Assembly (NCBI RefSeq): GCF_026344005.1 | Contig: NZ_JAPKNH010000001.1 | Coordinates: 558,001 to 622,000, forward strand | Length of the DNA: 64,000 nucleotides | From: Kaistia terrae | GTDB taxonomy: Bacteria; Pseudomonadota; Alphaproteobacteria; Rhizobiales; Kaistiaceae | Reading direction: 5' to 3' | Shown: positions 40,516 through 56,287 of the stretch, piece after piece | Layout of the letters: every line of letters starts with the position of its first letter | Numbering within the stretch: the stretch's first letter is position 1 | Program-made: the position numbers and the translations under genes | The notes under the pieces: generated by a model | Seen by the model: the letters and a program-made list of their open reading frames with translations, nothing else | Databases searched by the model: none | Told to the model about the DNA's origin: nothing

Positions 40516-41146
40516 GGTTTTCTCCATGGGGGACGTTAGTTTGCTGGATAGGCAACACGCGGCGCGCCGCCGAACGGCAGTGGTTCGCGGGCATGAGTCT
40601 TCACGCGATAAGGCGGAGCCACGCGTTCACGAATCTGGCGTTGTCGGAGGATCGCGGTCGCGTAGTTCATGCGCACATTGCAGCATGAGCGACCTATGAA
40701 AAACGAGGTCGAGACTATCCCGATTGCCACGCCACGAGGACTTTCCTTGCTGGAAGCGGGGTCGCAGGGAGAAGAAAAAACCTACAGACGATTTAGTCTA
40801 TAATTTTGGTCGCCTTTTTAATTTAGGCGAACGCCGAAGCCATGGACTCCCTCTTGGCGCGGTGGCGGAGCAGGGGGCACGACGTTCCGAACAGTCCAAC
40901 GTGTCAGGGTTGAAGGGTAGGTCGCCGCAGCGACTTGGTGCTGGATCGAGACTGGCAGTGCTGGATCCCGGTCTTGGCCCGGGCGATTGCCTCATGCGTC
41001 TTCGATGGTTCCTGCACGTCGTTGATGTGGGCGCCAAGCGGGTCGCGTCTGACCTGCGTCGTTTGGATCTTGAGCCTGTGCAGCATGGCTTGCGGCACGT
41101 CTTGCTTGACGCGTCCGGACGGGTTCCCTACCACTGCCTCCGTCAT
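40516..41146. other. Non-coding or unexplained region upstream of the riboswitch
   Basis: About 630 bases without a gene I can support. A short AT-rich part at 40775-40825 contains a TATAAT-like hexamer at 40799-40804 without a good -35 box. A minus-strand open frame at 40904-41146 has a plausible amino acid mix but no ribosome binding site or recognised family; it may be a gene remnant. Confidence 0.4.
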
Positions 41147-41335
41147 GGTTCTCCGGTCCGTCGAAGCGGCGCTGGGGCTAAGAGGGAATTAGGTGCGTCT
41201 GCTTCTGGCAGGCAATACCGGAGCTGCCCCCGCAACTGTAAGCGGCGAGTCCAGGTCCAACGAGTGCCACTGAAGCCGAAGCTTCGGGAAGGCCGAACCT
41301 GGGTGACGACCCGCGAGCCAGGAGACCTGCCCTGA
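41147..41335 (+). ncRNA. Cobalamin (B12) riboswitch
   Basis: The conserved parts are in order: GGGGCTAAGAGGGAA followed by GGTGCG, the B12 box region GCCCCCGCAACTGTAAGCGG, GCCACTG followed by GGGAAGGC, and the final GCGAGCCAGGAGACCTGCC. It ends about 125 bases before the CbiX-like/ferredoxin gene and so is placed to repress that operon when adenosylcobalamin is plentiful. Alpha-proteobacterial class members usually act on translation or termination; a short hairpin with TTCCTT and AAGGAA follows at about 41346-41372 but is not a clear terminator. Confidence 0.94.
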
Positions 41336-41460
41336 CCGGTTGCAATTCCTTGGGCGGGGTGTCCTGAAGGAACGGTTGGCTGGTCTCGACGGGCGTTTGC
41401 GCCGTCTATCCAATCATTCGTCCTTTTCCGACGCTTCGCCCGTTCCGCGGGGACTCGGAC

Positions 41461-42249
41461 ATGCTGGATCTCAAAGCCAAGCCTTCGGGCTCGAAGCCGC
41501 CTGGGCGTGCTGTCCTGTTGCTGGCAAAGTCTGCCTTCGCGGCGGCACCGATGCAGGAAATGCAGCGTCTGACCGAGCGCATCCAGCGACAGCGTGGTTC
41601 CGACGAGCATGTCGTCTTCGCGTTCTCCGAACAGGGTACGCCCGCCCTGCGCGATGTGATGCTGGAGCTTCGCGATGCCGGTTTTCGCGAGATCGTCATC
41701 GTGCCGCTGTTGATCCCGCTCGAGCCAAGCTTCCGTCTCTGGCTGGGCCGGACGCTGCAGCGCTGGCTGCGGGATGCCCCCGGCGTCTGGCCGCCGATCC
41801 GCATTTCCGCGCCACCGGAAGAGTCGCCAGGGCTGCATGACCTCGTCGGTGCGCTGATCGACGGCTGTTCGACGCAGCCTACCATGGCCATGCCCGACAG
41901 GCCGCTGCCCGACGCATCGCTGGTCCCTGCGCAGAAGCGTCGCGTCCTGGTCTGCCAAGGTGGCCCTTGCAACGCGGCGGGCGCCGACGTGATCTGGGGC
42001 CATCTCCGCAGCGAGCAGGAGCGCCGCAAGCTGCGCAACGTCGGCGATGGCGTGATGACCGCCAAGTCGACCTGCCTCGGTCCCTGCAATCTCGCGCCAG
42101 TGCTGCAGGTGTTTCCCGAAGGGACCTACTACGGCGGCGTCACCGAGGCCGGCATCGACTGCATCATCGATGAGCACCTGCTGGGTGGCCGCATTGTCGC
42201 CGCGCTCGCCTATGAGCCGACCGGCCGCAAACAGTTGCTGCGCTCTTAG
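41461..42249 (+). CDS. CbiX-like domain fused to a thioredoxin-fold [2Fe-2S] ferredoxin domain
   Basis: A 262-residue soluble protein. The N-terminal part (about residues 10-135) has the alternating strand/helix layout of the sirohydrochlorin cobaltochelatase (CbiX/SirB) half-domain, but the GHGSR-like metal histidine is absent (LLLAKSAFAAAPM) and the second histidine region reads IPLEPSFRLWLG. The C-terminal part (about 160-250) is a thioredoxin-like [2Fe-2S] domain with CQGGPC and CLGPC ligands. It is the first gene after the B12 riboswitch and precedes an ABC transporter. Cobalt trafficking or redox sensing are possible roles; a chelatase reaction looks unlikely without the histidines. Confidence 0.75.
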   Translation: MLDLKAKPSGSKPPGRAVLLLAKSAFAAAPMQEMQRLTERIQRQRGSDEHVVFAFSEQGTPALRDVMLELRDAGFREIVIVPLLIPLEPSFRLWLGRTLQRWLRDAPGVWPPIRISAPPEESPGLHDLVGALIDGCSTQPTMAMPDRPLPDASLVPAQKRRVLVCQGGPCNAAGADVIWGHLRSEQERRKLRNVGDGVMTAKSTCLGPCNLAPVLQVFPEGTYYGGVTEAGIDCIIDEHLLGGRIVAALAYEPTGRKQLLRS

Positions 42250-42281
42250 TCCCTATTCTCCCATTTCAGAAAGACCTTCTC

Positions 42282-43778
42282 ATGAAGACCATGCTTCGCG
42301 CCTTGCGGACGTCTGCGGTGCTGCTCGCGTCAGTGGCTGGTTTCGCAACCGTCGCTCATGCGGCCGATCCGTTGCGGGTCGGCGCCTCGTTCATTGCCAG
42401 CGGGCTTGATCCCACCAAGGGCTCGAACGGCTGGGCATTGGCCAGCCACGGTATCGGCGAGAACCTGTTTTCGGTCGATAAGGACGGCGTGCTCGTTCCG
42501 GAGCTTGCCGCGAGTGCCGAGCGCGTCGACAAACTGACATGGCGGGTCAGGCTCAAGCCGGGCCGCCAATTCTCCGATGGAGCGCCAGTATCGGCCGAAG
42601 CCGTCAGCGCCGGGCTGGCGCATACGACGGCGAACAACAAGGCGGCGCTCGCCACCGGAGGCAAGCTTGCGTTCCAGGCCGAGGATCCCCTGACAATCAA
42701 AGTTACGACCGAGCGGCCAGTGCCCCTCATCCAGGCACTGTTCGCCGAGTGGCCGTTGATCGTCTATGGCCTCAAGGCGGATGGCAGCGCCGTGTTCAGC
42801 GGTCCCTATGCCGTCCAATCCTTTAAGCCGGATGCGGAGATCGAGCTCGTCGCCAATCCGCATTTCGACGGCGCGGAGAAGCGCAGCCCCATCACCTACC
42901 GCAAATTCGGCGATGCGCAGGCGTTGACACTCGCCCTCGAAGCCGGGGAACTCGACCTTGCCTTCGGTCTGCCGGCCGAGAGCATTGCGCGGCTGAAGAA
43001 GGATCCGGACCTTGCCATCAAGTCGTTTCCGGTCGGCTACCAATATCTCGCCTATCTGAACACCCGGAAGCCCGCTCTGACCGATGCCAGGGTCCGCCGC
43101 GCCATCGATCTCGCCATCGACCGCAGCCAGCTCGCCACCGCCATCAATGGCGGCCTGCCGGCGACTGGGGCTTATGCTCCGTATTTCCCTTTCGCAGGCA
43201 AGGAAACGCGGCCGACCGACGCCGCGAAGGCTGCGGCGTTGCTGGACGCAGCGGGTTGGACGACTGGCGTCGATGGCAAGCGCTCGAAGGAAGGCGCGCC
43301 GCTGGAACTGACCGTTCTCGCCTATCCGCAGCGCCCAGACCTCGTTGCCATGTTGCCTGTGGTCAAGGCGCAGCTCGCTCCGCTCGGCATCGCGGTGGAG
43401 ACGAAGATCGTCGAGAATGCCAACGACGTCGCCGCTTCGGGCGACTATGACGTTTTCCTCTGGGCCCAGCATACGGCACCGAGCGGGGACCCGGCCTTCT
43501 TCCTTAACAGCACGTTCAGGACAGGCGCCGGGCTGAACTTCACGGGCTATTCCAGTCCCGATTTCGACGCCATCCTCGACGGCTTCGCAACCGAGAGCGA
43601 TCCGGCGAAGCGGGCCGACATTGCCGCCCACGCACAGCAGAAGCTGTTCGAGGACGCGCCGGTCTCCTTCCTGCTGTCGCCAGTCTGGCATGTCGGCCTG
43701 TCGAAGGCGCTTTCCGGCTACGAGCCCTGGGGCTCCGACTACCATGTGCTGCGCGCCGACATCGGCGAGGCGAACTGA
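42282..43778 (+). CDS. NikA/DppA-like ABC substrate-binding protein under the B12 riboswitch
   Basis: A 498-residue periplasmic binding protein of family 5. The signal peptide ends at TVAHAA. It has GSNGWALASHGIGENLF, LTWRVRLKPGRQFSDGAPV, EAGELDLAFGLP and DARVRRAIDLAIDRSQLA segments. It is 32 bases downstream of the CbiX-like gene and upstream of two permeases. Control by a B12 riboswitch makes cobalt, a cobalt chelate or a corrinoid precursor the likely ligand; this is inferred from regulation and position. It is distinct from, and not close to, the NikA protein encoded at 45727. Confidence 0.85.
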   Translation: MKTMLRALRTSAVLLASVAGFATVAHAADPLRVGASFIASGLDPTKGSNGWALASHGIGENLFSVDKDGVLVPELAASAERVDKLTWRVRLKPGRQFSDGAPVSAEAVSAGLAHTTANNKAALATGGKLAFQAEDPLTIKVTTERPVPLIQALFAEWPLIVYGLKADGSAVFSGPYAVQSFKPDAEIELVANPHFDGAEKRSPITYRKFGDAQALTLALEAGELDLAFGLPAESIARLKKDPDLAIKSFPVGYQYLAYLNTRKPALTDARVRRAIDLAIDRSQLATAINGGLPATGAYAPYFPFAGKETRPTDAAKAAALLDAAGWTTGVDGKRSKEGAPLELTVLAYPQRPDLVAMLPVVKAQLAPLGIAVETKIVENANDVAASGDYDVFLWAQHTAPSGDPAFFLNSTFRTGAGLNFTGYSSPDFDAILDGFATESDPAKRADIAAHAQQKLFEDAPVSFLLSPVWHVGLSKALSGYEPWGSDYHVLRADIGEAN

Positions 43779-43789
43779 GTGCGACGCCT

Positions 43790-44707
43790 TTGACGCTTCC
43801 CGCCCGGATCACGCTGAGGACGGTCACCAGCTTGCTGGTGATCTCTCTCCTGGCGTTCGCGGTCATATCGGCGATGCCGTCCGACCCCGTCGCCATCGCG
43901 ATCCGGGCCTGGAACCTGCCGTCGGATGGCGCCACCGTCGCGGGCTTGCGCGCTCAGTGGGAGCTCGACCGGCCGTTCATCGAGCGCTACGGCTCCTGGC
44001 TGGCGCGCTTCGTTCGCGGCGATTGGGGCATCTCGTTCCGTACTGGCGAGCCAGTACTCGCCGAATTCCTGCAGCGCCTGCCGCTCACCATGACGATGGC
44101 GCTCTCCGGGCTGGCGCTCGCGCCACTTCTCGCCGTGCCGCTCGGCTTTTTTGCCGCGCTGCGTCCAAGCGGATTGATCGACCGCGCGACACGCGGCCTC
44201 GCGGTCTTCATCCAGGCCGTGCCGTCGATCTGGCTCGGCCTGATCCTGCTCTATGTCCTAGGTGTGCAACTCCGCTGGATCCGTCCTTTCACGCGCGACT
44301 GGACCGGGCTGATCCTGCCCGTGGCGTTGATCGCGCTGCATTCCCTCGCCGTGCTGACCCGAGTCTATCGCCGCGACCTGCTTGAAGTGACCCGGCAGCC
44401 CTTCTTCCGCACGGCGCTCGCCAAGGGCCTGACCCGTTCTGCCGCGCTCTGGCGCCATGGCCACGCCCACGCCCTCTACGCCATGATCTCTGCCTTTCGG
44501 GCCGAGGCAAGCTGGGCCGTTGGCAGCACGGCCGCGCTGGAGGTGCTGTTCGGTCTTCCTGGCATCGGCCAATTCCTCGTCGAGAGCATCGCGGCGCGCG
44601 ATTACCCGGTCCTGCAGGCGTATGTGATGGTCGTGGCGGCCTGGCTTCTCGTTCTCAATGCCGGAGTCGCGCTCTGCCTCGGCTGGCTCGGGCCGCGTCC
44701 AGCATGA
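43790..44707 (+). CDS. NikB/DppB-like ABC permease of the B12-regulated transporter
   Basis: A 305-residue inner-membrane permease: first helix followed by AVISAMPSDPVAIAIRAWN, then WELDRPFIERYGSW, GDWGISFRTGEPVLAEFLQ, and the EAA-like region RTALAKGLTRSAALWRHGHAHAL, ending GWLGPRPA. The start is given as TTG at 43790, 11 bases after the binding-protein stop, because no in-frame ATG or GTG lies nearer. It overlaps the next permease by four bases. Confidence 0.86.
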   Translation: MTLPARITLRTVTSLLVISLLAFAVISAMPSDPVAIAIRAWNLPSDGATVAGLRAQWELDRPFIERYGSWLARFVRGDWGISFRTGEPVLAEFLQRLPLTMTMALSGLALAPLLAVPLGFFAALRPSGLIDRATRGLAVFIQAVPSIWLGLILLYVLGVQLRWIRPFTRDWTGLILPVALIALHSLAVLTRVYRRDLLEVTRQPFFRTALAKGLTRSAALWRHGHAHALYAMISAFRAEASWAVGSTAALEVLFGLPGIGQFLVESIAARDYPVLQAYVMVVAAWLLVLNAGVALCLGWLGPRPA

Positions 44708-45468
44708 GACGGACGGTCTCTACACTCGCGTTGCTGCTTATCGGCTTGATGCTGATCGGCGCTGTATGGCAGCCCCATGACCCAGACGCGATTGATCTCT
44801 CCCTGCGTTTCGCGCCGCCGTCGCTGGATCACTGGCTCGGCACGGATCAACTCGGCCGCGACGTTCTTGCCCGCCTGATGATCGGGGGATGGCGGACGGT
44901 CGCAGTGCTTGGCTGCGTCGCGGCGATTGGCATGGTCGGCGGCACGGTGTTCGGCGTTGCTGCGGCCATGCTGGAAGGCTGGCGGGGTGCATTGATCCTG
45001 CGAGCGGGCGAGATGTTTATTGTCGTGCCCACGCTGGTCGTCGCTCTGACGGCGGCGGCCGTGTTCGGTCTCAATCCGGTTACGGCCGGCGTGGCAATGG
45101 GGCTGGCGGGCATCGGGCCCTACACGCTCTTCGCCCACGCCCTGGCGCGACGGCTCCTGGCCGAACCGTTCGTGCAGGCTGCACGAGCCATGGGGGTTGG
45201 CGGATCCGGACTTGTGGTGCGCCATGTGGTGCCGAACATGGCGCCCGTGTTGTTTGCGCATATCGGAGCCAATGCGGGTCTAGCCGTCACCGCCTATGCG
45301 GCGCTCGCCTTCCTCGGCCTCGGCGCCGATCCGTCCAGGCCGGATTGGGGGGCGATGCTATTTGAATACCGCATGTTCCTCTTCGATCATCCACTGCTGA
45401 TGGTCTGGCCGGGGCTCGCCATCGCCATGGTTTCAGCAACGCTGAACGCAGTTTTCGATGCGCACTGA
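44704..45468 (+). CDS. NikC/DppC-like ABC permease of the B12-regulated transporter
   Basis: A 254-residue inner-membrane permease with the family motif WLGTDQLGRDVLARLMIGG and the EAA-like region QAARAMGVGGSGLVVRHVVPN, ending GLAIAMVSATLNAVFDAH. The ATG overlaps the preceding stop (ATGA). No ATPase gene follows; the next genes are nikABCDE, so its ATPases must come from elsewhere, most simply NikD and NikE. Confidence 0.9.
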   Translation: MRRTVSTLALLLIGLMLIGAVWQPHDPDAIDLSLRFAPPSLDHWLGTDQLGRDVLARLMIGGWRTVAVLGCVAAIGMVGGTVFGVAAAMLEGWRGALILRAGEMFIVVPTLVVALTAAAVFGLNPVTAGVAMGLAGIGPYTLFAHALARRLLAEPFVQAARAMGVGGSGLVVRHVVPNMAPVLFAHIGANAGLAVTAYAALAFLGLGADPSRPDWGAMLFEYRMFLFDHPLLMVWPGLAIAMVSATLNAVFDAH

Positions 45469-45726: not shown

Positions 45727-47295
45727 ATGCGTGGAGTTCTGGTCGGGGCGCTGCTCGGGATTGCGGCGACTATCGCGCCCGCATCGGGTGTCGTCGCGCA
45801 GACACTGAATTTCTCATGGCCAGCCAATGTCGGACCTCTCAACCCGCACGCCTACGCGCCGAGCCAGATGTTCGCGCAGGGTATGGTCTACGAGTCGCTG
45901 GTGAAGTATCAGCCCGACGGCACCGTGGCTCCGTGGCTTGCCGCCTCCTGGACCACGTCCGAGGATGGCCGGACCTACACCTTCAAGCTGCGTGATGACG
46001 TCACCTTCTCGAACGGCGAGACGTTCGACGCGGCCGCCGTCGTCGCCAACCTCGAAACCGTCATGGCCAACCGGAAGAGTCATGACTGGCTGGAACTCAT
46101 CAGCCAGTTCCATTCGGTCAAGGCGCTGGCCGATTTCACGGTCGAGCTGCAGCTGAAGGATCCGTATTACCCGCTACTGCAGGAACTGGCGCTGGTTCGG
46201 CCCGTCCGTTTCCTCGCGCCGTCGCAGCTTCCGGCCTCCGGCAACACCGAGGAAGGCGTAAAGGCGCCCATTGGCACCGGGCCTTGGAAGCTCGTCGAAA
46301 CGCGGCTCGGCGAATATGACGTGTTCGAGCGCAACGACAGCTATTGGGGTCAGAAGCCGGCCTACGAGAAGATCGTCGTCAAGGTCATCGCCGACAGCAA
46401 CACGCGCGCCGTGGCGCTTGAGACGGGCGACATCGACCTGATCTATGGCGACGAGGGGCCTATCACGCCTGACACCTTCGCCCGCCTCAAGGCCCAGGGC
46501 TACCAGGGCGAGATCTCGCCGCCGCTCGGAACGCAGGCTATCGCGCTCAACACCAACAAGGCGCCGACGAACGACCTTGCCGTCCGCCAAGCGATCAACC
46601 ACGCCATAGACAAGGACACGCTTATTTCAACGATCTATCACGGCACCCAGACCCGCGCCGACACCCTGTTCGCGCCGACCGCGCCTTATTCCGATGTGGG
46701 GTTGAAGCCCTATGGCTTCGACGCGGCACTTGCGGCGAGCCTGCTCGACAAGGCCGGGTGGACGCTCGCGCCGGGTGCCGACTTCCGCGCCAAGGATGGG
46801 CAGCCGCTGCAGATCGACCTCGCCTATATCGGGACGGACGCGGTGATGAAGTCGGTCGCCGAGGTACTGCAGGCCGACCTGGCCAAGGTCGGCATTGAGG
46901 CCCGGCTGCTGGGCGAGGAAGCCAACGCCTTTTATGCGCGCCAGACGGACGGCAATTTCGGCATGATCTTCGGCAACACGTGGGGCGCCCCCTACGACCC
47001 GCACGCCTTCGTCAGCTCGATGCGCGTTCCCGCTCACGCCGACTACCAGGCGCAACTCGGCCTCCCAGACAAGGCGAAGATCGACGCCGAGATAGGCCAG
47101 GCGCTGACCAGCACCGACGAGACGAAGCGCCAGGAACTCTATACCGACATCCTGACACGGCTACACGACGAGGCCGTGTACCTGCCGCTCACCTATTCCA
47201 CGGCCATGCTGGTCGCGCGGGACAATGTCGGCAATCTCACCTTCGGCGCCACCTCGTTCGACTACCCCTTCGCCGACCTGAAGCCGAAGGACTGA
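45727..47295 (+). CDS. nikA: Nickel ABC transporter substrate-binding protein NikA
   Basis: A 522-residue periplasmic protein closely matching E. coli NikA along its length: [80 protein letters not shown], and [20 protein letters not shown] followed by AHADYQAQ. The conserved His of SHADF-type segments in E. coli is kept here as AHADY. A signal peptide ends near GVVAQ. It binds nickel, probably with a small chelator, for the inner-membrane transporter. A perfect NikR operator lies upstream. Confidence 0.95.
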
Positions 47296-47303
47296 GCCCC
47301 GCC

Positions 47304-48248
47304 ATGGCCGGCTTCATCATCCGCAGGTTGCTTCTTCTGATCCCCATCCTGCTTGGCGTTTCCATCTTGATGTTCGTGATCATCCGGATGGCGCCCGGCG
47401 ATCCTGCCGTGGCTTATCTTAAGCTCTCGAACATACCGCCGACGCCGAGCGCCGTGGCGGAGGCACGCCACACGCTCGGCCTCGACCGGCCCATCCTCTC
47501 GCAATATGCAAGCTGGATCGGCAATGCGGTGAAGGGCGACTTCGGCGTCTCGCATGTCACGCGACGCCCGGTCATCGACGACATCATGCACTTCCTGCCG
47601 GCGACGCTTCAGCTCGCCGGGGTGGCGCTCCTGTTCACGCTGGTCGTTTCCGTGCCGCTCGGCATCTGGTCGGCGCGTTACAAGGACCGCTGGCCCGACC
47701 ACCTGGTGCGCGGCTTCGCCTTCGTCGGCGTCTCCACGCCGAGCTTCTGGCTCGGCTTCCTGCTTGTGCTGCTGTTTTCGCTGACGCTCAAATGGCTGCC
47801 GCCGATGGGCAAGGGCGGCTGGCAACACATGATCATGCCCGTGCTGGCGGTCTCGTTCATGTCGCTGGCGATCAATGCGCGCCTGCTGCGCGCCAGCATG
47901 CTGGAGACGGCGAGCGCCCGCCATGTACTCTATGCGCGGCTCCGCGGCCTCTCCGACCGGCGGGTCGAGCGCTCGCACATCCTGCGCAACGCCATGCTCC
48001 CCATCGTGACGGCGACCGGCATGCATGTCGGCGAACTTCTGGGCGGCACGCTGGTGATCGAGAGCGTGTTCGGCTGGCCGGGCATTGGCCGCTATGCGGT
48101 CACTGCGATCTACAGCCGCGACTTCCCCGTCATCCAGTGCTTCACCCTGTTCCTGGTGACGATCTTCGTCCTCTGCAACCTGGTGGTCGATATCCTCTAT
48201 GCGTGGCTGGACCCGCGCATCCGCCTGAACGCGGAGGCAGCCCTGTGA
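47304..48248 (+). CDS. nikB: Nickel ABC transporter permease NikB
   Basis: A 314-residue inner-membrane permease. The first helix ([19 protein letters not shown]) is followed by [53 protein letters not shown] and the EAA-like region [20 protein letters not shown], ending [16 protein letters not shown]. The ATG lies eight bases after the nikA stop. It forms the channel with NikC. Confidence 0.94.
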
Positions 48249-49123
48249 CCCTCGCCAGCCTCGATGAACACGCGCCCCGGCGCACGCTCTGGCGCCTGCC
48301 GGTTCGAGATACATGGCTGGTGCGCATCGCGCTCGTCATCGTCGTCCTGCTCGCCATTGCCGCCATTGCCGCGCCACTGGTCGCCCCCTACGACCCCAAC
48401 GCGGTCGAACTGACCCGGCGCCTCCAAGGCCCCAGCCTCGCACATTGGCTCGGCACTGATCATCTCGGCCGCGACGAACTCACTCGGCTGATTTATGGAA
48501 CGCGGGTTTCGCTGGGCTCGGTAGCGCTCTGCATTGTGCTGATCATGACGCTCGCCATCGCGGTTGGCGGCGCGTCCGGCTATCTGGGCGGGCGCGTCGA
48601 CCAGGCCGTGATGCGCTTCTGCGACATCTTCCTCGCCTTCCCGACCATCGTCCTCGCGCTGTTCCTGATCGGCATCCTCGGCACGGGCATGGGGAACGTC
48701 GTCATCGCCATCGCGCTGTCGCACTTCGCCTGGTACGCCCGCATGGTGCGCGGCCTGGTTCTCTCCTTCCGGCAGCGTGACTTCGTGCTCGCTGCGCGGG
48801 CCGCAGGCGCCGGCCGCGTGCGCATATTCTTCGAGCACCTCTTCCCGGCCATCATGGCGCAGATGATCGTGCTCGCCACGCTCGACATCGGCCACATGAT
48901 GTTGCACGTGGCGGGCCTCTCCTTCCTCGGGCTCGGCGTCCAGACGCCGACCGCCGAATGGGGCGTGATGATCAACGACGCCCGCCAGTTCGTCTGGTCC
49001 AACCCGATGCTGATTGTCTGGCCCGGCCTCGCGCTTCTGCTCAGCGTGATGGCGTTCAACATCCTGGGGGATGCGGTGCGCGACCGGCTCGACCCGAGCC
49101 TGCACGGAGACCACCAGCATTGA
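48245..49123 (+). CDS. nikC: Nickel ABC transporter permease NikC
   Basis: A 292-residue inner-membrane permease with [60 protein letters not shown] and the EAA-like region [20 protein letters not shown]. The GTG start at 48245 overlaps the nikB stop (GTGA). The C-terminus is His-rich (HGDHQH). Confidence 0.94.
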
Positions 49124-49899
49124 CCGGGACGCTCACCATCGAGAACCTCCACATCGCCGCCAGGCATGGCGACCATGACCATGTGCTTGTCGACGGCATC
49201 AGCCTGACGATCCGGCGCGGGCGGATCCTCGCCTTGGTCGGTTCCAGCGGATGTGGCAAGTCCATGACCTGCAGCGGCGCGCAGGGCGTGCTGCCGCCCG
49301 GCGTGCGCGTCACAGGAGGGCAAGTGCTCTACGATGGCCGTCCCATCGCGCCGGAGAAGTTGCGCGGCCATGTCGTCGCGGCGATCCTGCAGAACCCGCG
49401 CTCGGCCTTCAATCCGGTCCTGACCATGGCCAACCACGCCAAGGAGACGCTGCGGGCGGTCGGCAAGCTCGACTCCGGCTGGCGCAGCCGGACTCTTGAG
49501 GCCTTCGCGACGGTCGGGCTGGAGGACGGCGAGACGGTGCTGGGGCTGCATCCTTTCGAGATGAGCGGCGGCATGCTGCAGCGGACCATGATCGCCCTGG
49601 CGCTTCTGTCGGACGCGCCCTTCCTCTTCGCCGATGAGCCGACCACCGACCTCGACCTCATCGTCCAGGCGCGCATCCTCGACCTGCTCGAAGAGCTTGC
49701 CCGCCGCCGCAATCTCGGCGTCCTCATGATCACGCACGACATGGGCGTGGTGGCGCGGCTCGCCGACGAAGTGGCCGTGATGGAGAACGGCCGCATCATC
49801 GAGCGGGCGACCACCCGCGATATCTTTGACAATCCGCAGCGCATAGCGACCCGCGAACTGGTCGAAGCCCACATGTCGCTCTATCCGGAGGTTGCATGA
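49120..49899 (+). CDS. nikD: Nickel ABC transporter ATPase NikD
   Basis: A 259-residue ATPase: Walker A GSSGCGKS, signature MSGGMLQR, Walker [12 protein letters not shown]-loop MITHDMG. The family-typical signature MSGGMLQR supports NikD. The start is the TTG at 49120 overlapping the nikC stop (TTGA); longer in-frame readings run through nikC. It pairs with NikE and could also energise the B12-regulated permeases upstream. Confidence 0.93.
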
Positions 49900-50702
49900 G
49901 CCCGATCCTGTCCGCACGGTCGCTCTCGAAGGTCTACTCGACCCATTCGCTGGTCGGGCGATCGGCGCCGAAGACCGTGCTCCGCGACGTGTCGCTCGAC
50001 ATCGCGGCCGGCGAGAGCATCGCGCTGCTCGGCCGCAGCGGCTCGGGCAAGAGCACGCTCGGACGCCTGCTGCTCGGCTTCGAGCGGCCGGACGGTGGCA
50101 GCGTCGCCTTCGATGGCCATGATCTGCGCGGCCTCTCGGGCGAGGCCTACCGGCACTATCGCCGCTCGGTCCAGGTCGTCTTCCAGGACTCGCTCGGCGC
50201 CGTGAATCCGCGCCATACGGTCGGCCGCATCATCGCCGAACCGCTGCGCCACCTGACGACGCTCGGCGCGGACGAGCGCGACCGCAGGGTCCGCTCGCTG
50301 TTGATGCAGGTCGGACTCGCGCCGGCCGACGCCCGCAAGTTGCCCACCCAGATGAGCGGCGGCCAGATGCAACGCGTTTGCATCGCCCGCGCCATCGCAC
50401 CATCACCCCGGCTGCTCGTCCTCGACGAGGCAGTCTCCAATCTCGACCTCATGCTACAGATGCAGATGATCGCGCTTCTTAAGGAGCTGCAGTCGACGCT
50501 GAAGATGGCTGTGCTGTTCATCACCCACGACCTGCGGCTGGTGCGCCTGTTCTGCAGTCGCGTCATGGTGCTGGCTGCAGGTCGCATCGAGGAGGACGAG
50601 CCGGTCGTGCGGAGCCTGGAACTGCGCTCGGTGGAAGGACGCCTCCTGCAAGGCGCAATCCTGCCGGCACGGCCCGTCCATCGGCCCCTGGAGCCGGTTT
50701 AG
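49896..50702 (+). CDS. nikE: Nickel ABC transporter ATPase NikE
   Basis: A 268-residue ATPase: Walker A GRSGSGKS, signature MSGGQMQR, Walker [12 protein letters not shown]-loop FITHDLR. The LDEAVSNLD motif is typical of NikE. It overlaps nikD by four bases (ATGA) and ends the operon. Confidence 0.94.
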
Positions 50703-52769: not shown

Positions 52770-53585
52770 ATGAATTTGGGCACAGTAACCGAAGTAAAAC
52801 GGCCGAGATCCGCTGACGAAATCGGTAGCTGGCGGGATGGATACTCCTGGCTGGCCGGCGGCACCTGGCTGTTCTCGGAGCCGCAGGTGGCGGTCGACAC
52901 GCTGATCGATCTCGACGCCCTTGGCTGGGCGCCGCTGACCGTGACGGAAGCCGGCCTCGACATCGCCGCGACCTGCCGGGTCGTGCAGCTGCACGATTTC
53001 GAAGGCCCGGCGGACTGGCGTGCGGTCCCATTGTTCCGGCAGGCCATCGACGCGTTCCTGATGTCGTTCAAGATCTGGAATGCAGCGACCATCGGCGGCA
53101 ATGTCTGCATGTCGCTGCCTGCGGGCGCGATGATCTCGCTGACGGCGGCCCTCGACGGCGTCTGCACGCTGTGGCCGCGCGAAGGCGAGCCGCGCGAGGT
53201 GCCGGTCGTCGACTTCGTCACCGGCAACCACCGCAACGTGCTGCAGCGGGGAGAACTGCTCCGCCAGATCCACCTGCCGGCGGCGGCACTCTCGAAAAGG
53301 TCGGCCATGCGTCAGGTGTCGCTGACGAAATTCGGCCGTTCGGCCGCGCTCCTGATCGCCACGGTGGGGGATGGCGGCGCCGACTTCCTGCTGACGGTCA
53401 CCGCCGCCACGCCGCGGCCGGTGCAGTTGCGCTTCGCCAGTTGCCCAACGGCCGAAGAACTGCGGCTGGCCCTGGAGGCTAGATTGCCACCGGACGCCTA
53501 TTTCGACGACGTGCACGGGTCGGCTTCCTACAAGCGCCACGTCACGCATTATCTCGCCGAACAGATCCGCGCGGAGCTTGCATGA
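52770..53585 (+). CDS. FAD-binding subunit of a molybdenum hydroxylase (CoxM/XdhB-like)
   Basis: A 271-residue subunit with the FAD-binding motifs LAGGTWLFSE and TIGGNVCMSLPAGAM and the CO-dehydrogenase-type C-terminal domain. It carries electrons from the iron-sulfur centres to an acceptor. It lies 12 bases after the multicopper oxidase stop and overlaps the next gene by four bases. It has no signal peptide. Confidence 0.88.
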   Translation: MNLGTVTEVKRPRSADEIGSWRDGYSWLAGGTWLFSEPQVAVDTLIDLDALGWAPLTVTEAGLDIAATCRVVQLHDFEGPADWRAVPLFRQAIDAFLMSFKIWNAATIGGNVCMSLPAGAMISLTAALDGVCTLWPREGEPREVPVVDFVTGNHRNVLQRGELLRQIHLPAAALSKRSAMRQVSLTKFGRSAALLIATVGDGGADFLLTVTAATPRPVQLRFASCPTAEELRLALEARLPPDAYFDDVHGSASYKRHVTHYLAEQIRAELA

Positions 53586-56287
53586 CCCATTTCCATGTCA
53601 ATGGCCGTCACTACGAGGCAGAGCCGACCGCCGGCCAGTGCCTGCGCACCCTTCTGCGCGATCTCGAGGTATTCGGGGTCAAGAAGGGTTGCGACGCGGG
53701 CGACTGCGGCGCCTGCACGGTGCATATCGACGGCAAGCCGTTCCACTCCTGCCTGGTGCCGGCGTTTCGTGGCGAAGGCCGCGAGATCACGACGATCGAG
53801 GGCCTGGCCACGGACGGCGAACTGCATCCGATGCAGCAGGCGTTTCACGATGCGCAGGCGTTTCAATGCGGGTTCTGCACCGCCGGCATGATCATGACGG
53901 CCGTGACGCTGACCGAAGCGCAGAAGCGTGACCTGCCGCATGCGCTGAAGGGGAACCTCTGCCGCTGCACAGGCTACCGATCGATAAACGACGCGCTGCA
54001 CGGCACGTGCAACATCGAGGTGGACGTGGCCGGCAAGGCCTTGGGAGCCAGCCTGCCTAACCCGTTCACCGACGCCATACTGACCGGCACGGCGCGCTAC
54101 ACGATGGATCTTGCCGTCGAAGGGCTCCTGCACCTGAAGGTTCTACGCTCGCCCCATGCCCATGCGCGCATCGTCTCCATCGACCGCCGCGCGGCGCTCG
54201 CTGTGCCGGGCGTCGTCGCCGTGTATACTTGGGAAGACGTGCCGGGGCGCTTGTTCAGCTCGGCCTTGCACGAGGACCATCTCGTCGACCCCGACGACAT
54301 CCGCCTGCTCGACGACGTCATGCGTTTCGTCGGCCAACGCGTCGCCGCCGTGGTTGCGGAGACCGAGGCGGCGGCTGAGGCGGGCTGCCGGGCGCTCTCC
54401 GTCGACTATGAGATCCTGCCGGCCGTCTTCGACCCGGTCCTGGCGGTGCAGCCTGGAGCCCCGCTGCTGCATGACAGGGACCAGGTAACCGGGAACGACA
54501 ACATCTTCTGCACCTTGCAGGGCGAAATCGGCGACGTCGCCGAGGGCTTCGCGGAGGCCGACCTGGTGCATGAGCAGACCTATTCGACCACGCGCGTGCA
54601 GCATGTGCATCTGGAAACGCATGGATCGATCGCCTGGAAGGGTGAGGATAACCGCTGGCATGTCCGCACAAGCTCGCAGGCGCCGTTCGCCGCGCGGCAG
54701 AAGCTCGCCTACATCATGGGGATTCCGCCCCTCGATCTGCATGTGTTCACCGAGCGTGTCGGGGGCGGCTTCGGCGGCAAGCAGGAATTGGTGTCGGAAG
54801 ATCTCGTGCTGTTCGCCACGATGAAACTCGGGCGCCCGGTAAAGTGGGAATGGAGCCGCGAGGATGAGTTCATCGGCGCCACGACGCGCCACCAGATGAC
54901 CACACGGGTGAAGATCGGCGCGCGCCGGGACGGTACGCTGACGGCGCTCGACGTCGAGGTGTTCTCCAACACCGGCGCCTATGGCGGCCATGGCAGCGAA
55001 ACACTGGCGGCTGCGATGGCGAGCCCGATCGCCGCCTATCGCTGCGCCAACAAGAAGGGCATCGGCCACGCCGTCTACACCAACATGACGCCCGGCGGCG
55101 GGTTTCGCGGCTATGGCGCCTCGCAGACCACCTTCGCGGTGGAGTGCGCGATCGACGAACTGGCAAGGCAGCTCGACATCGATCCGTTCGAGATGCGTCG
55201 CATGAACGTGGTTCGGCCTGGCGACAACATCGAATCGATCTGGAAGGAACCCAGCGACGCCAGCTTCGGCAGCTACGGCATCGGGGAGTGTCTCGATATC
55301 GTCGAGCGGGAGCTGAAGAAGGACAACGGCGTCGCGAGGCCCGACGGCGCGGATTGGGCCGAGGGCCAGGGTATCGCAATGGCCATGCTGGAATGCGGGC
55401 CGCCGACCGAGCATCGCTCGGGTGCCGAAATGCGGTTGCAGCCGAACGGCACCTACCATCTCGCCTGCGGTTCGACCGAAATGGGCAACGGCATCACCAC
55501 GGCGCACAAGCAGATCGCCGCCTCGATACTGGGTACGCGCGCCGATGACATCGACATCATCAACGCCGATACGGATCGCACACCCTACGACACGGGCACG
55601 TTTGCGAGCACCGGCGTCGTGGTCGGCGGCAAGGCGGTTCACCTGGCGGCCGAGGCGATGTCGGCCGACATCCTCGACTTCGCGAGCCGCCACGCTGGCG
55701 TGCCGATCGATCAATGCCGCCTCGACAATGACGGCGTCATCTGCGGCAGCCGCCGGATCTCGCTACGCGAGTTGCATGCGGAAGGGACGAAGGTCGACCA
55801 TCGCTTTTGGGTGAGCCGCCGGGCCTATCTGTCGCCGCGCACGATCGCCTTCAACGTGCAGGGTGTACGTCTCGCCGTGCATCGCACGACCGGCGAGATC
55901 CGCGTGTTGCACAGCGTGCATGCGGCCGATATCGGCCGGCCGATCAACCCGATGCAGTGCCGCGGCCAGCTCGATGGCGCCGTTGCGATGGGGTATGGCT
56001 GGGCGCTGGTTGAGAACATGGTGCATGACGCCGACGGGCATATGGTCAATCCGCAGTTGCGCAATTGCCGCATCCCGACCTTTGCCGACACGCCGCACAC
56101 CGACATCTTCTTCGCCGATACGACCGATACGATCGGGCCTCTCGGTGCGAAGTCCCAGGGCGAGTGCGGCATCAATCCGGTGGCGCCGGCCGTCTCGAAT
56201 GCGCTGGCCGATGCCACGGGTGTAAGGTTCGCCCATCTGCCTTTCCTGCCTGATCGCCTGTTCGCCAAACTCAGTGCTGCCCCATGA
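53582..56287 (+). CDS. Molybdenum hydroxylase with fused [2Fe-2S] and molybdopterin domains
   Basis: A 901-residue xanthine dehydrogenase-family protein. The N-terminal plant-type cluster uses C37, C42, C45 and C57 and the second cluster uses C96, C99, C127 and C129. From about residue 165 the molybdopterin domains follow, with GGGFGGKQE, PGGGFRGYGASQ, and the segment GAKSQGECGINPVAPAVSNAL, split here for length, holding the catalytic Glu. The FAD subunit is separate. It hydroxylates an aromatic heterocycle, aldehyde or similar; the substrate is not predictable. No twin-arginine signal is visible, so it should be cytoplasmic, unlike the oxidase beside it. Confidence 0.9.
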   Translation: MTHFHVNGRHYEAEPTAGQCLRTLLRDLEVFGVKKGCDAGDCGACTVHIDGKPFHSCLVPAFRGEGREITTIEGLATDGELHPMQQAFHDAQAFQCGFCTAGMIMTAVTLTEAQKRDLPHALKGNLCRCTGYRSINDALHGTCNIEVDVAGKALGASLPNPFTDAILTGTARYTMDLAVEGLLHLKVLRSPHAHARIVSIDRRAALAVPGVVAVYTWEDVPGRLFSSALHEDHLVDPDDIRLLDDVMRFVGQRVAAVVAETEAAAEAGCRALSVDYEILPAVFDPVLAVQPGAPLLHDRDQVTGNDNIFCTLQGEIGDVAEGFAEADLVHEQTYSTTRVQHVHLETHGSIAWKGEDNRWHVRTSSQAPFAARQKLAYIMGIPPLDLHVFTERVGGGFGGKQELVSEDLVLFATMKLGRPVKWEWSREDEFIGATTRHQMTTRVKIGARRDGTLTALDVEVFSNTGAYGGHGSETLAAAMASPIAAYRCANKKGIGHAVYTNMTPGGGFRGYGASQTTFAVECAIDELARQLDIDPFEMRRMNVVRPGDNIESIWKEPSDASFGSYGIGECLDIVERELKKDNGVARPDGADWAEGQGIAMAMLECGPPTEHRSGAEMRLQPNGTYHLACGSTEMGNGITTAHKQIAASILGTRADDIDIINADTDRTPYDTGTFASTGVVVGGKAVHLAAEAMSADILDFASRHAGVPIDQCRLDNDGVICGSRRISLRELHAEGTKVDHRFWVSRRAYLSPRTIAFNVQGVRLAVHRTTGEIRVLHSVHAADIGRPINPMQCRGQLDGAVAMGYGWALVENMVHDADGHMVNPQLRNCRIPTFADTPHTDIFFADTTDTIGPLGAKSQGECGINPVAPAVSNALADATGVRFAHLPFLPDRLFAKLSAAP

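Follow-up and report, generated by a model that had tools for sequence, protein, structure and literature searches.

What would a bacterium take up through a vitamin B12-controlled ABC importer that has no ATPase of its own, and why should the first gene of its operon join a chelatase-like domain to a ferredoxin? These questions are raised by a locus in Kaistia terrae (assembly GCF_026344005.1, contig NZ_JAPKNH010000001.1), within a stretch of 64,000 nucleotides (positions 558,001 to 622,000; hereafter, the window) that we analysed. Here, a cobalamin riboswitch precedes four plus-strand, closely spaced genes which encode a fusion of a CbiX-like domain with a thioredoxin-like [2Fe-2S] ferredoxin (hereafter, chelFd), a family-5 substrate-binding protein (SBP) and two permeases (permA and permB). 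The explanation we favour, to which we give about an even chance, is that the operon imports a cobalt chelate from which chelFd frees the cobalt by reduction; the metal, the chelate, the cytosolic place of chelFd, its reductase activity and the supply of an ATPase in trans are what we infer from the evidence set out below.

A preliminary description, made from the letters of the window, had recognised a textbook cobalamin riboswitch followed by a CbiX-like/[2Fe-2S] fusion gene, and both identifications hold. The RF00174 aptamer exceeds the gathering score of 31.5 with 121.6 bits (E 5.3e-30), covers the whole model (positions 1-189) and is the sole Rfam match at gathering within the window; chelFd, which starts 113 nt after the riboswitch, scores above the Pfam cut-offs for both CbiX (24.8 bits, cut-off 22, residues 32-85) and 2Fe-2S_thioredx (PF01257; 37.9 bits, cut-off 24.8). 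In the predicted structure of chelFd (mean pLDDT 86.5), one domain matches CbiX/CfbA-like chelatases and the other matches thioredoxin-like [2Fe-2S] ferredoxins, with Foldseek returning CbiX (3lyh, TMt 0.81), CfbA with Co2+ (6m28, TMt 0.80) and a [2Fe-2S] ferredoxin (1m2a, TMt 0.79). The CbiX domain is matched in 29 of 31 chelFd members at E <= 0.01, and the nearest named relative of the window protein is that of Kaistia granuli (L011), at 78% identity.

The label 'chelatase-like', which had also been proposed, is apt for the domain and its fold, but not for the activity. When a profile of the first domain is aligned with 3lyh (E 8.5e-9), the histidine of AHGS falls opposite AKSA and that of GRHL opposite EPSL, and we take these lost positions to be those of the catalytic CbiX histidines; in CbiX-L these are His14 and His79, according to passages of a review (PMC7689651). 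In our 31-row alignment, 28 rows cover the first site and carry K or R (27 rows) or Q (one row) there, and the second site is occupied by a residue other than histidine in all 31. Because both catalytic histidines are lost, chelFd is probably not an active chelatase, and the candidate role of an active cobalt chelatase was discarded on this ground. Four cysteines (C165, C170, C205 and C209) are kept in 31/31 rows, presumably to bind the cluster in the C-x4-C and C-x3-C pattern of NuoE. A separate haloarchaeal record (L051:5074-6303) encodes, within a cobalamin operon, a CbiX-type protein whose ferredoxin domain resembles the one in chelFd.

To place the operon in context, we gathered 43 chelFd loci, all by similarity to chelFd except for three that were reached via the SBP (L016, L019, L020), and none via the riboswitch. 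One Rhizobium plasmid entered twice (L052 and L138 are one record with an identical gene) and is counted once, leaving 42 distinct loci; a ferredoxin-only locus (L050) and the haloarchaeal cob operon stand outside this count. Plasmid records with chelFd similarity numbered 31, and contexts were taken for 11, three of these via the SBP search, near-copies and most ferredoxin-only matches being left out. Nine of 14 matches in genomes other than that of the window were included, the other five matching the ferredoxin part only; another search with 66 matches contributed only the five from other genomes that reach both domains, and a further one with 14 matches added eleven, three being already in the set.

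The complete cassette, chelFd-SBP-permA-permB, occurs at 18 distinct loci in Kaistia, Rhizobiaceae and Paracoccus, that is, in the window and 17 others. A chelFd scan of GTDB genomes yielded 8 loci, in 7 of which the SBP and permease genes directly follow chelFd (a Bosea locus, L008, lacks them), and the identical gene order is found on plasmids of Neorhizobium, Shinella, Rhizobium and Paracoccus, in a further genome (L036) belonging to the window's genus and in six Rhizobiaceae genomes (L134, L135, L137, L138, L141, L142). A riboswitch lies upstream in 18/18 cassette loci, 87-171 nt before the matched chelFd stretch in the 17 others. The matched stretches of chelFd, permA and permB are free of stop codons in all 18, the permeases of the other 17 are 55-96% identical to those of the window, and the SBP is intact in 17 of the 18. 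The recurrence of this gene order in 17 further loci is more than chance. In L141 (6986-8457), the cassette SBP matches in two overlapping frames, reflecting either a sequencing error or recent decay. On the Shinella plasmid (L019:1379-7027), three cobalamin aptamers fall within 6 kb, before nrdHIE, metE and the chelFd cassette. A methyltransferase gene considered as common to the Shinella and Bosea loci was rejected, the two genes not matching each other.

Across the wider collection, an Rfam scan shows that 38 of 43 loci (37/42 distinct) have a cobalamin aptamer upstream of chelFd and in the same orientation, at a distance of 77-184 nt where chelFd is the first gene and of 2-5.3 kb where it comes later in the set. 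The preliminary description had held that a consistent lack of B12 riboswitches among homologues would count against it; the 37 of 42 loci, and all of the ATPase-less cassettes, show the reverse. A home-made B12-box pattern, which recovered only 12 of 39 known loci, was dropped.

What differs among these loci is the importer beside chelFd. The ATPase-less SBP5-permease-permease set accounts for 18 of the 42 distinct loci, and an importer of the Nik/Opp type with ATPase for four (two ATPase matches each in L136, L139 and L140, a single 494-aa ATPase gene in L049). Another 17 (L132, L038-L048, L113-L117) have an importer of the BtuF/FecCD/ATPase type, 14 of them matching all three subunit kinds and L115-L117 the BtuF-like protein only, and several of these loci also carry a TonB-receptor-like gene. 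The remaining three (L133, L037, L008) have no importer directly beside chelFd; in L008, an aptamer directly follows chelFd, with a TonB-BtuF-FecCD-ATPase set behind it. Despite their different importers, the chelFd proteins of L132, L136, L139 and L140 are 59-60% identical to that of the window, and the cassette chelFd rows outside the window's group are 56-61% identical to it in the same alignment. On a chelFd tree of 40 rows (without L020, L052 and L117, and with several long rows of unsure placement), 8 partner changes are needed against a theoretical minimum of 3, and well-supported branches by themselves require four changes or more for the ATPase-less class and four or more for the Btu class. 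Judged from these loci, chelFd is the constant part and the importer is the varying part, and such constancy alongside changing importers directs attention to the chemistry of what is carried. In two loci (L039:1-3700 and L038:4600-9600), a second SBP-permease-permease set, of the Nik/Opp type, lies near chelFd and its BtuF-type importer, and that of L039 stands behind a cobalamin aptamer truncated at the edge of the sequence examined.

In a few operons, a FhuF-like protein takes the place of chelFd. In Ponticoccus, a riboswitch is followed by genes for a BtuF-like SBP (67.4% identity with its counterpart in the chelFd operon L132), FecCD, an ATPase and a FhuF-like protein with the FhuF_C 2Fe-2S motif. 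In Labrenzia, the order is riboswitch (record 241574-241784, minus strand), SBP5, permease, permease-ATPase, ATPase and a FhuF-like protein 50% identical to that of Ponticoccus. In Rhodococcus PD04, two operons occur, one with chelFd as its last gene and the other with a FhuF_C protein, and a weak aptamer precedes each (39.3 and 41.7 bits). Thus, both importer types occur with both kinds of [2Fe-2S] protein; no match to the FhuF or FhuF_C domains was found when sought in chelFd itself. Adjoining the FhuF-like operon on the Labrenzia plasmid (L162) are nrdHIEF behind its own aptamer and a separate NikR-linked importer.

The importer of the cassette consists, as had been described, of one binding protein and two permeases with no ATPase. 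The SBP matches Pfam SBP_bac_5 (239.8 bits) and is nearer to metal-type (NikA/Opp5A) than to peptide SBPs: its best NCBIfam model is Opp5A_nikA (248.6 bits, below the cut-off of 600), it scores 121.4 bits against the NikA equivalog TIGR02294 (below the cut-off of 393), and its nearest PDB chain by sequence, 3t66, a 'nickel ABC transporter' (E 7.1e-53), also ranks first by fold (SBP model pLDDT 81.4). The 50 fold matches listed for the SBP include 5yhe, a structure of CntA in complex with staphylopine and cobalt, and the N terminus of the SBP resembles, by eye, a signal peptide. Both permeases match BPD_transp_1 (permA, 93.8 bits; permB, 77.7 bits), with Opp2B (246.1 bits, cut-off 350) and Opp2C (167.9 bits, cut-off 300), respectively, as best NCBIfam models, each below its cut-off. 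The coupling loop of permA (RTALAKGL...RH) has a conservation of 0.868 vs a protein mean of 0.767, with 31 of 287 sequence windows as high, and eleven of its residues are invariant in 12/12 rows, as are A159, A160, G164, H174 and P177 in the loop of permB.

Where, then, would the energy come from? In none of the 18 cassette loci, the window included, was an ATPase gene found in the 3 kb that follow permB on its strand. In the window, a complete NikABCDE system with two ATPase genes, which the preliminary description left out, begins 258 nt after permB; its NikA scores 698.1 bits with TIGR02294 (cut-off 393), NikB, NikC and NikE are above their cut-offs, and NikD reaches 316.0 vs 318.7. NikA above cut-off was found in all three Kaistia-group cassette genomes (the window's own, G000, as well as G244 and Kaistia granuli G251), in none of three same-genus genomes without a chelFd match (G099, G130, G225), and in none of six other cassette genomes. 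The neighbouring NikDE is a plausible ATPase donor within the window's genus; as a general donor it was rejected given the 0/6 elsewhere, being a local solution at most. The sister genome G244 has its NikA gene on the chelFd contig, beginning some 14 kb past chelFd. Since the six other cassette genomes have no NikA above cut-off, the ATPase is probably borrowed. From the stop-free permease stretches and the coupling loops, we take the importer to be probably still coupled to an ATPase encoded elsewhere. A dedicated orphan ATPase was also rejected as a candidate, two ATPase queries giving several similar peptide-type matches in every genome (8 to 29 per genome in 6 genomes at E <= 1e-30, and 4 to 23 in 12 genomes at E <= 1e-45) with none singled out, as judged by the matches themselves and not by their gene neighbourhoods.

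The placement of the riboswitch supports B12 control of the operon, a regulation that is predicted. The 5.59 Mb genome has three more aptamers above the gathering score, followed by genes that look, by eye, like CbtA-CobW-CobN-CobO, MetE and NrdAB, with CbtA and CobN verified by Pfam models. Because its other aptamers precede such genes, the operon in the window would be part of an ordinary B12 regulon, and the host is a likely B12 producer. The genome's own B12 region (L014, G000:C23:110000-126000) comprises, behind an aptamer, CbtA together with CobW-, CobN-, CobO- and CobQ-like genes (CbtA and CobN by Pfam, the rest by eye), and a BtuB/BtuF/FecCD-like set (by eye).

At the level of sequence, we have established the riboswitch, the domains, the lost chelatase histidines, the conservation, the missing ATPase, the importer swapping and the FhuF-like replacement. 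Co(III) complexes swap ligands very slowly and Co(II) complexes fast, which makes a reductase a sensible partner of a chelate importer. In the model we propose, scarcity of adenosylcobalamin would cause the riboswitch to permit expression of the operon; the NikA/Opp5A-like SBP would capture, in the periplasm, a cobalt complex with a small organic ligand (e.g., a histidine- or metallophore-type chelate), and permA and permB would carry the complex inward, powered by two ATPase subunits whose genes lie elsewhere. Within the cytosol, chelFd would hold the complex by its CbiX-like domain and give it an electron from the [2Fe-2S] cluster, converting inert Co(III) to exchangeable Co(II), which could pass to CobW/CobN for B12 synthesis. 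The role of chelFd for cobalt chelates would be that of FhuF for ferric siderophores, and the simplest common reading would be that all the collected operons import a cobalt chelate, with either chelFd or a FhuF-like protein releasing the metal reductively. More tentatively, and with a confidence somewhat short of even, we propose chelFd as the first member of a novel class of reductases for metal chelates, a disarmed cobalt chelatase joined to a ferredoxin, that marks a dedicated, B12-controlled 'cobaltophore' uptake route in which the importer has changed repeatedly, including importers that gave up their own ATPase.

Several observations weigh against this model. The upstream riboswitch is absent in 5 of the 42 chelFd loci (L008, L037, L043, L047, L113); in the genomes of L037, L043 and L113, aptamers lie on other contigs, and the L047 plasmid, when scanned, had none at all. 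The coupling loop of permB is conserved below its protein mean (0.693 vs 0.751, with 209 of 233 sequence windows as high), and among the ATPase genes sought with two queries, no donor stood out in any genome. The preliminary description had suggested checking whether the cassette is kept in strains lacking other cobalt importers, and we observed the opposite, CbtA being present in all nine cassette genomes tested and in five of seven without the cassette. The cassette is, therefore, not the only cobalt route, and we rejected it as a sole cobalt importer; its standing as a candidate cobalt uptake system, with the metal inferred, is nonetheless supported. CobN shows a similar distribution (9/9 cassette genomes, 6/7 comparison genomes), and since both genes are also usual where the cassette is missing, they indicate B12 synthesis rather than a link to the cassette. 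Zinc is a possible cargo, given that three Neorhizobium loci (L005, L007, L020) carry a gene for an AztD-type zinc metallochaperone shortly before the chelFd operon and that Bosea L008 has, close to chelFd, a gene with remote similarity to AztD, and the BtuF-type partners and TonB receptors also fit corrinoids. The FhuF-like replacement is known from three cases only, with low scores against the NCBIfam cut-off of 63.85 (Labrenzia 38.0 bits, Ponticoccus 27.1 bits), and the Ponticoccus protein is only just above both Pfam cut-offs. Finally, a histidine lies two residues past the second lost site in 7 of 31 chelFd rows, that of the window not among them, and two residues past the first lost site in L044, so some metal binding there is possible.

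An explanation that we consider unlikely, albeit the least so among the alternatives, is that the operon imports cobalt (or cobalt- or nickel-histidine), with chelFd acting as a metallochaperone or cobalt store that passes Co(II) to CobW/CobN, its cluster being structural or regulatory and having no redox role in release. The CbiX ancestry of chelFd fits this idea, as does the haloarchaeal CbiX-type protein with a related ferredoxin domain in a cob operon, and chelatases with Fe-S centres dispensable for catalysis do exist, as passages of a review relate (PMC7689651); however, both metal-binding histidines are replaced in chelFd, and the FhuF-like proteins that occupy its place also count against this explanation. 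Corrinoid uptake seems unlikely as well. Under that scenario, the importers would take up corrinoids or their precursors (cobinamide, incomplete cobamides), and chelFd would reduce corrin Co(III) to Co(II) or strip the upper ligand for adenosylation, consistent with B12 control, with the BtuF/FecCD-type partners of chelFd at 17 of the 42 loci, several of which also have a gene resembling TonB receptors, and with the tetrapyrrole-binding nature of the CbiX fold, structures of which are among the fold matches of chelFd. The cassette SBP, however, is NikA/Opp5A-like, the host genome seems, by eye, to have its separate BtuB/BtuF/FecCD set in the cob region, CobN in 9/9 cassette genomes implies that they make B12 themselves, and FhuF, the positional equivalent of chelFd, is kin of siderophore-iron reductases.

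We regard a different metal as a rather improbable cargo. It would serve isozymes that work without B12 and are turned on at the same time, MetE with zinc or class I ribonucleotide reductase with iron or manganese, and the B12-controlled operon would then import chelates of zinc or iron. The aptamers before MetE-like and NrdAB-like genes (genes by eye) in the host genome, those before nrd and metE adjoining the Shinella cassette, and AztD upstream in Neorhizobium, as well as two genes close to chelFd in L008, one AztD-like and one G3E-GTPase-like, favour such a cargo, but AztD matches occur in only 4 of 163 sequences searched (three Neorhizobium, one Bosea), and chelFd is also found beside cob genes (L115-L117, by eye). 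That the permeases are decaying leftovers of an operon that no longer transports, as the lack of an ATPase gene, the two overlapping SBP reading frames of L141 and the below-average conservation of the permB loop could suggest, appears very improbable in view of the stop-free chelFd and permease stretches at all 18 loci, the 55-96% permease identity, the whole SBP in 17 of them, and the eleven invariant residues of the permA loop.

Features of the chelFd operon and its neighbour in the window
Feature	Position	Strand	Evidence or remark
Cobalamin (B12) riboswitch aptamer, RF00174	41129-41348	+	cmscan, 121.6 bits
Leader, aptamer to chelFd start	41349-41460	+	expression platform not assigned by folding or terminator scan
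chelFd, CbiX-like + thioredoxin-like [2Fe-2S] ferredoxin fusion, 262 aa	41461-42249	+	Pfam, predicted structure
Family-5 SBP, NikA/Opp5A-like, 498 aa	42282-43778	+	Pfam SBP_bac_5
permA, NikB/OppB-type permease, TTG start, 305 aa	43790-44707	+	Pfam BPD_transp_1
permB, NikC/OppC-type permease, 254 aa, 4 nt overlap with permA	44704-45468	+	Pfam BPD_transp_1
Complete NikABCDE nickel importer, neighbour outside the conserved cassette, possible ATPase donor	45727-50702	+	TIGR02294 etc.

A scan of the plus strand at 40700-41500 saw no terminator-like site, and the RNA fold of 41325-41480 has a z of -1.72 vs shuffles. Elsewhere in the window (53582-56287), a 901-aa protein joins the [2Fe-2S] and molybdopterin domains of a xanthine-dehydrogenase-type enzyme; its gene is preceded by an FAD-subunit gene, with a multicopper oxidase gene upstream.

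How bacteria obtain complexed cobalt for B12 and free it is poorly known. The passages on cobalt import in one review list importers and name no release step (PMC7689651), and our search of the literature for a CbiX-like/ferredoxin partner of an importer found none, most subscription papers being outside its reach. A chelFd gene beside a B12 riboswitch could serve as a sequence marker for finding new cobalt-chelate importers, and the cassette illustrates, in conserved form, an importer with two permeases that would have to obtain its ATPase from another system.

B12-controlled ABC metal import is already known; chelFd as a candidate reductase class would be the new part. The combination of genes had been called unusual; what is unusual is less the importer than chelFd, which travels with several importers, and B12-controlled Nik-type importers had been mentioned before: passages of one paper predict NikABCDE members of Clostridium tetani and Desulfitobacterium hafniense behind a B12 riboswitch (PMC2667541). 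Those systems resemble the cassette in having a Nik/Opp-type importer under predicted B12 control, and by their description as NikABCDE members they are set apart from a cassette with a divergent SBP, chelFd and no ATPase; the cassette SBP falls below the NikA equivalog score, and the operon lacks the two ATPase subunits of NikABCDE. CbtJKL of Sinorhizobium meliloti, a member of the Rhizobiaceae, is likewise an ABC cobalt importer under a cobalamin riboswitch, as far as passages of two papers describe it (PMC7689651, PMC12239276), but CbtJ is BtuF-like, whereas the cassette SBP belongs to family 5 (SBP_bac_5 + BPD_transp_1), a distinction drawn from description. Importers of the BtuF/FecCD type do adjoin chelFd in L132 and L038-L040; an S. 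meliloti locus (L161) considered as cbtJKL was rejected, there being no riboswitch. The icu (improved cobalt uptake) cluster of Methylobacterium can be likened, by description in passages of one paper, through its TonB receptor and periplasmic binding protein linked to cobalt uptake (PMC3621897). S. aureus NikA (Opp5A) and CntA, present in the PDB as nickel-histidine and cobalt-staphylopine complexes, share the SBP family, the best NCBIfam model and the fold with the cassette SBP, which differs from them in its 19-21% identity in structural alignment and its score below the equivalog cut-off. With the class II chelatases CbiX, SirB and CfbA, chelFd shares the N-terminal fold, but its catalytic histidines are replaced and a thioredoxin-like [2Fe-2S] domain is fused to it. 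A functional parallel would be FhuF, a [2Fe-2S] protein acting on an imported metal chelate, whose relatives stand in the place of chelFd in Ponticoccus and Labrenzia; unlike FhuF, chelFd combines CbiX with a thioredoxin-like ferredoxin, and its metal is probably cobalt.

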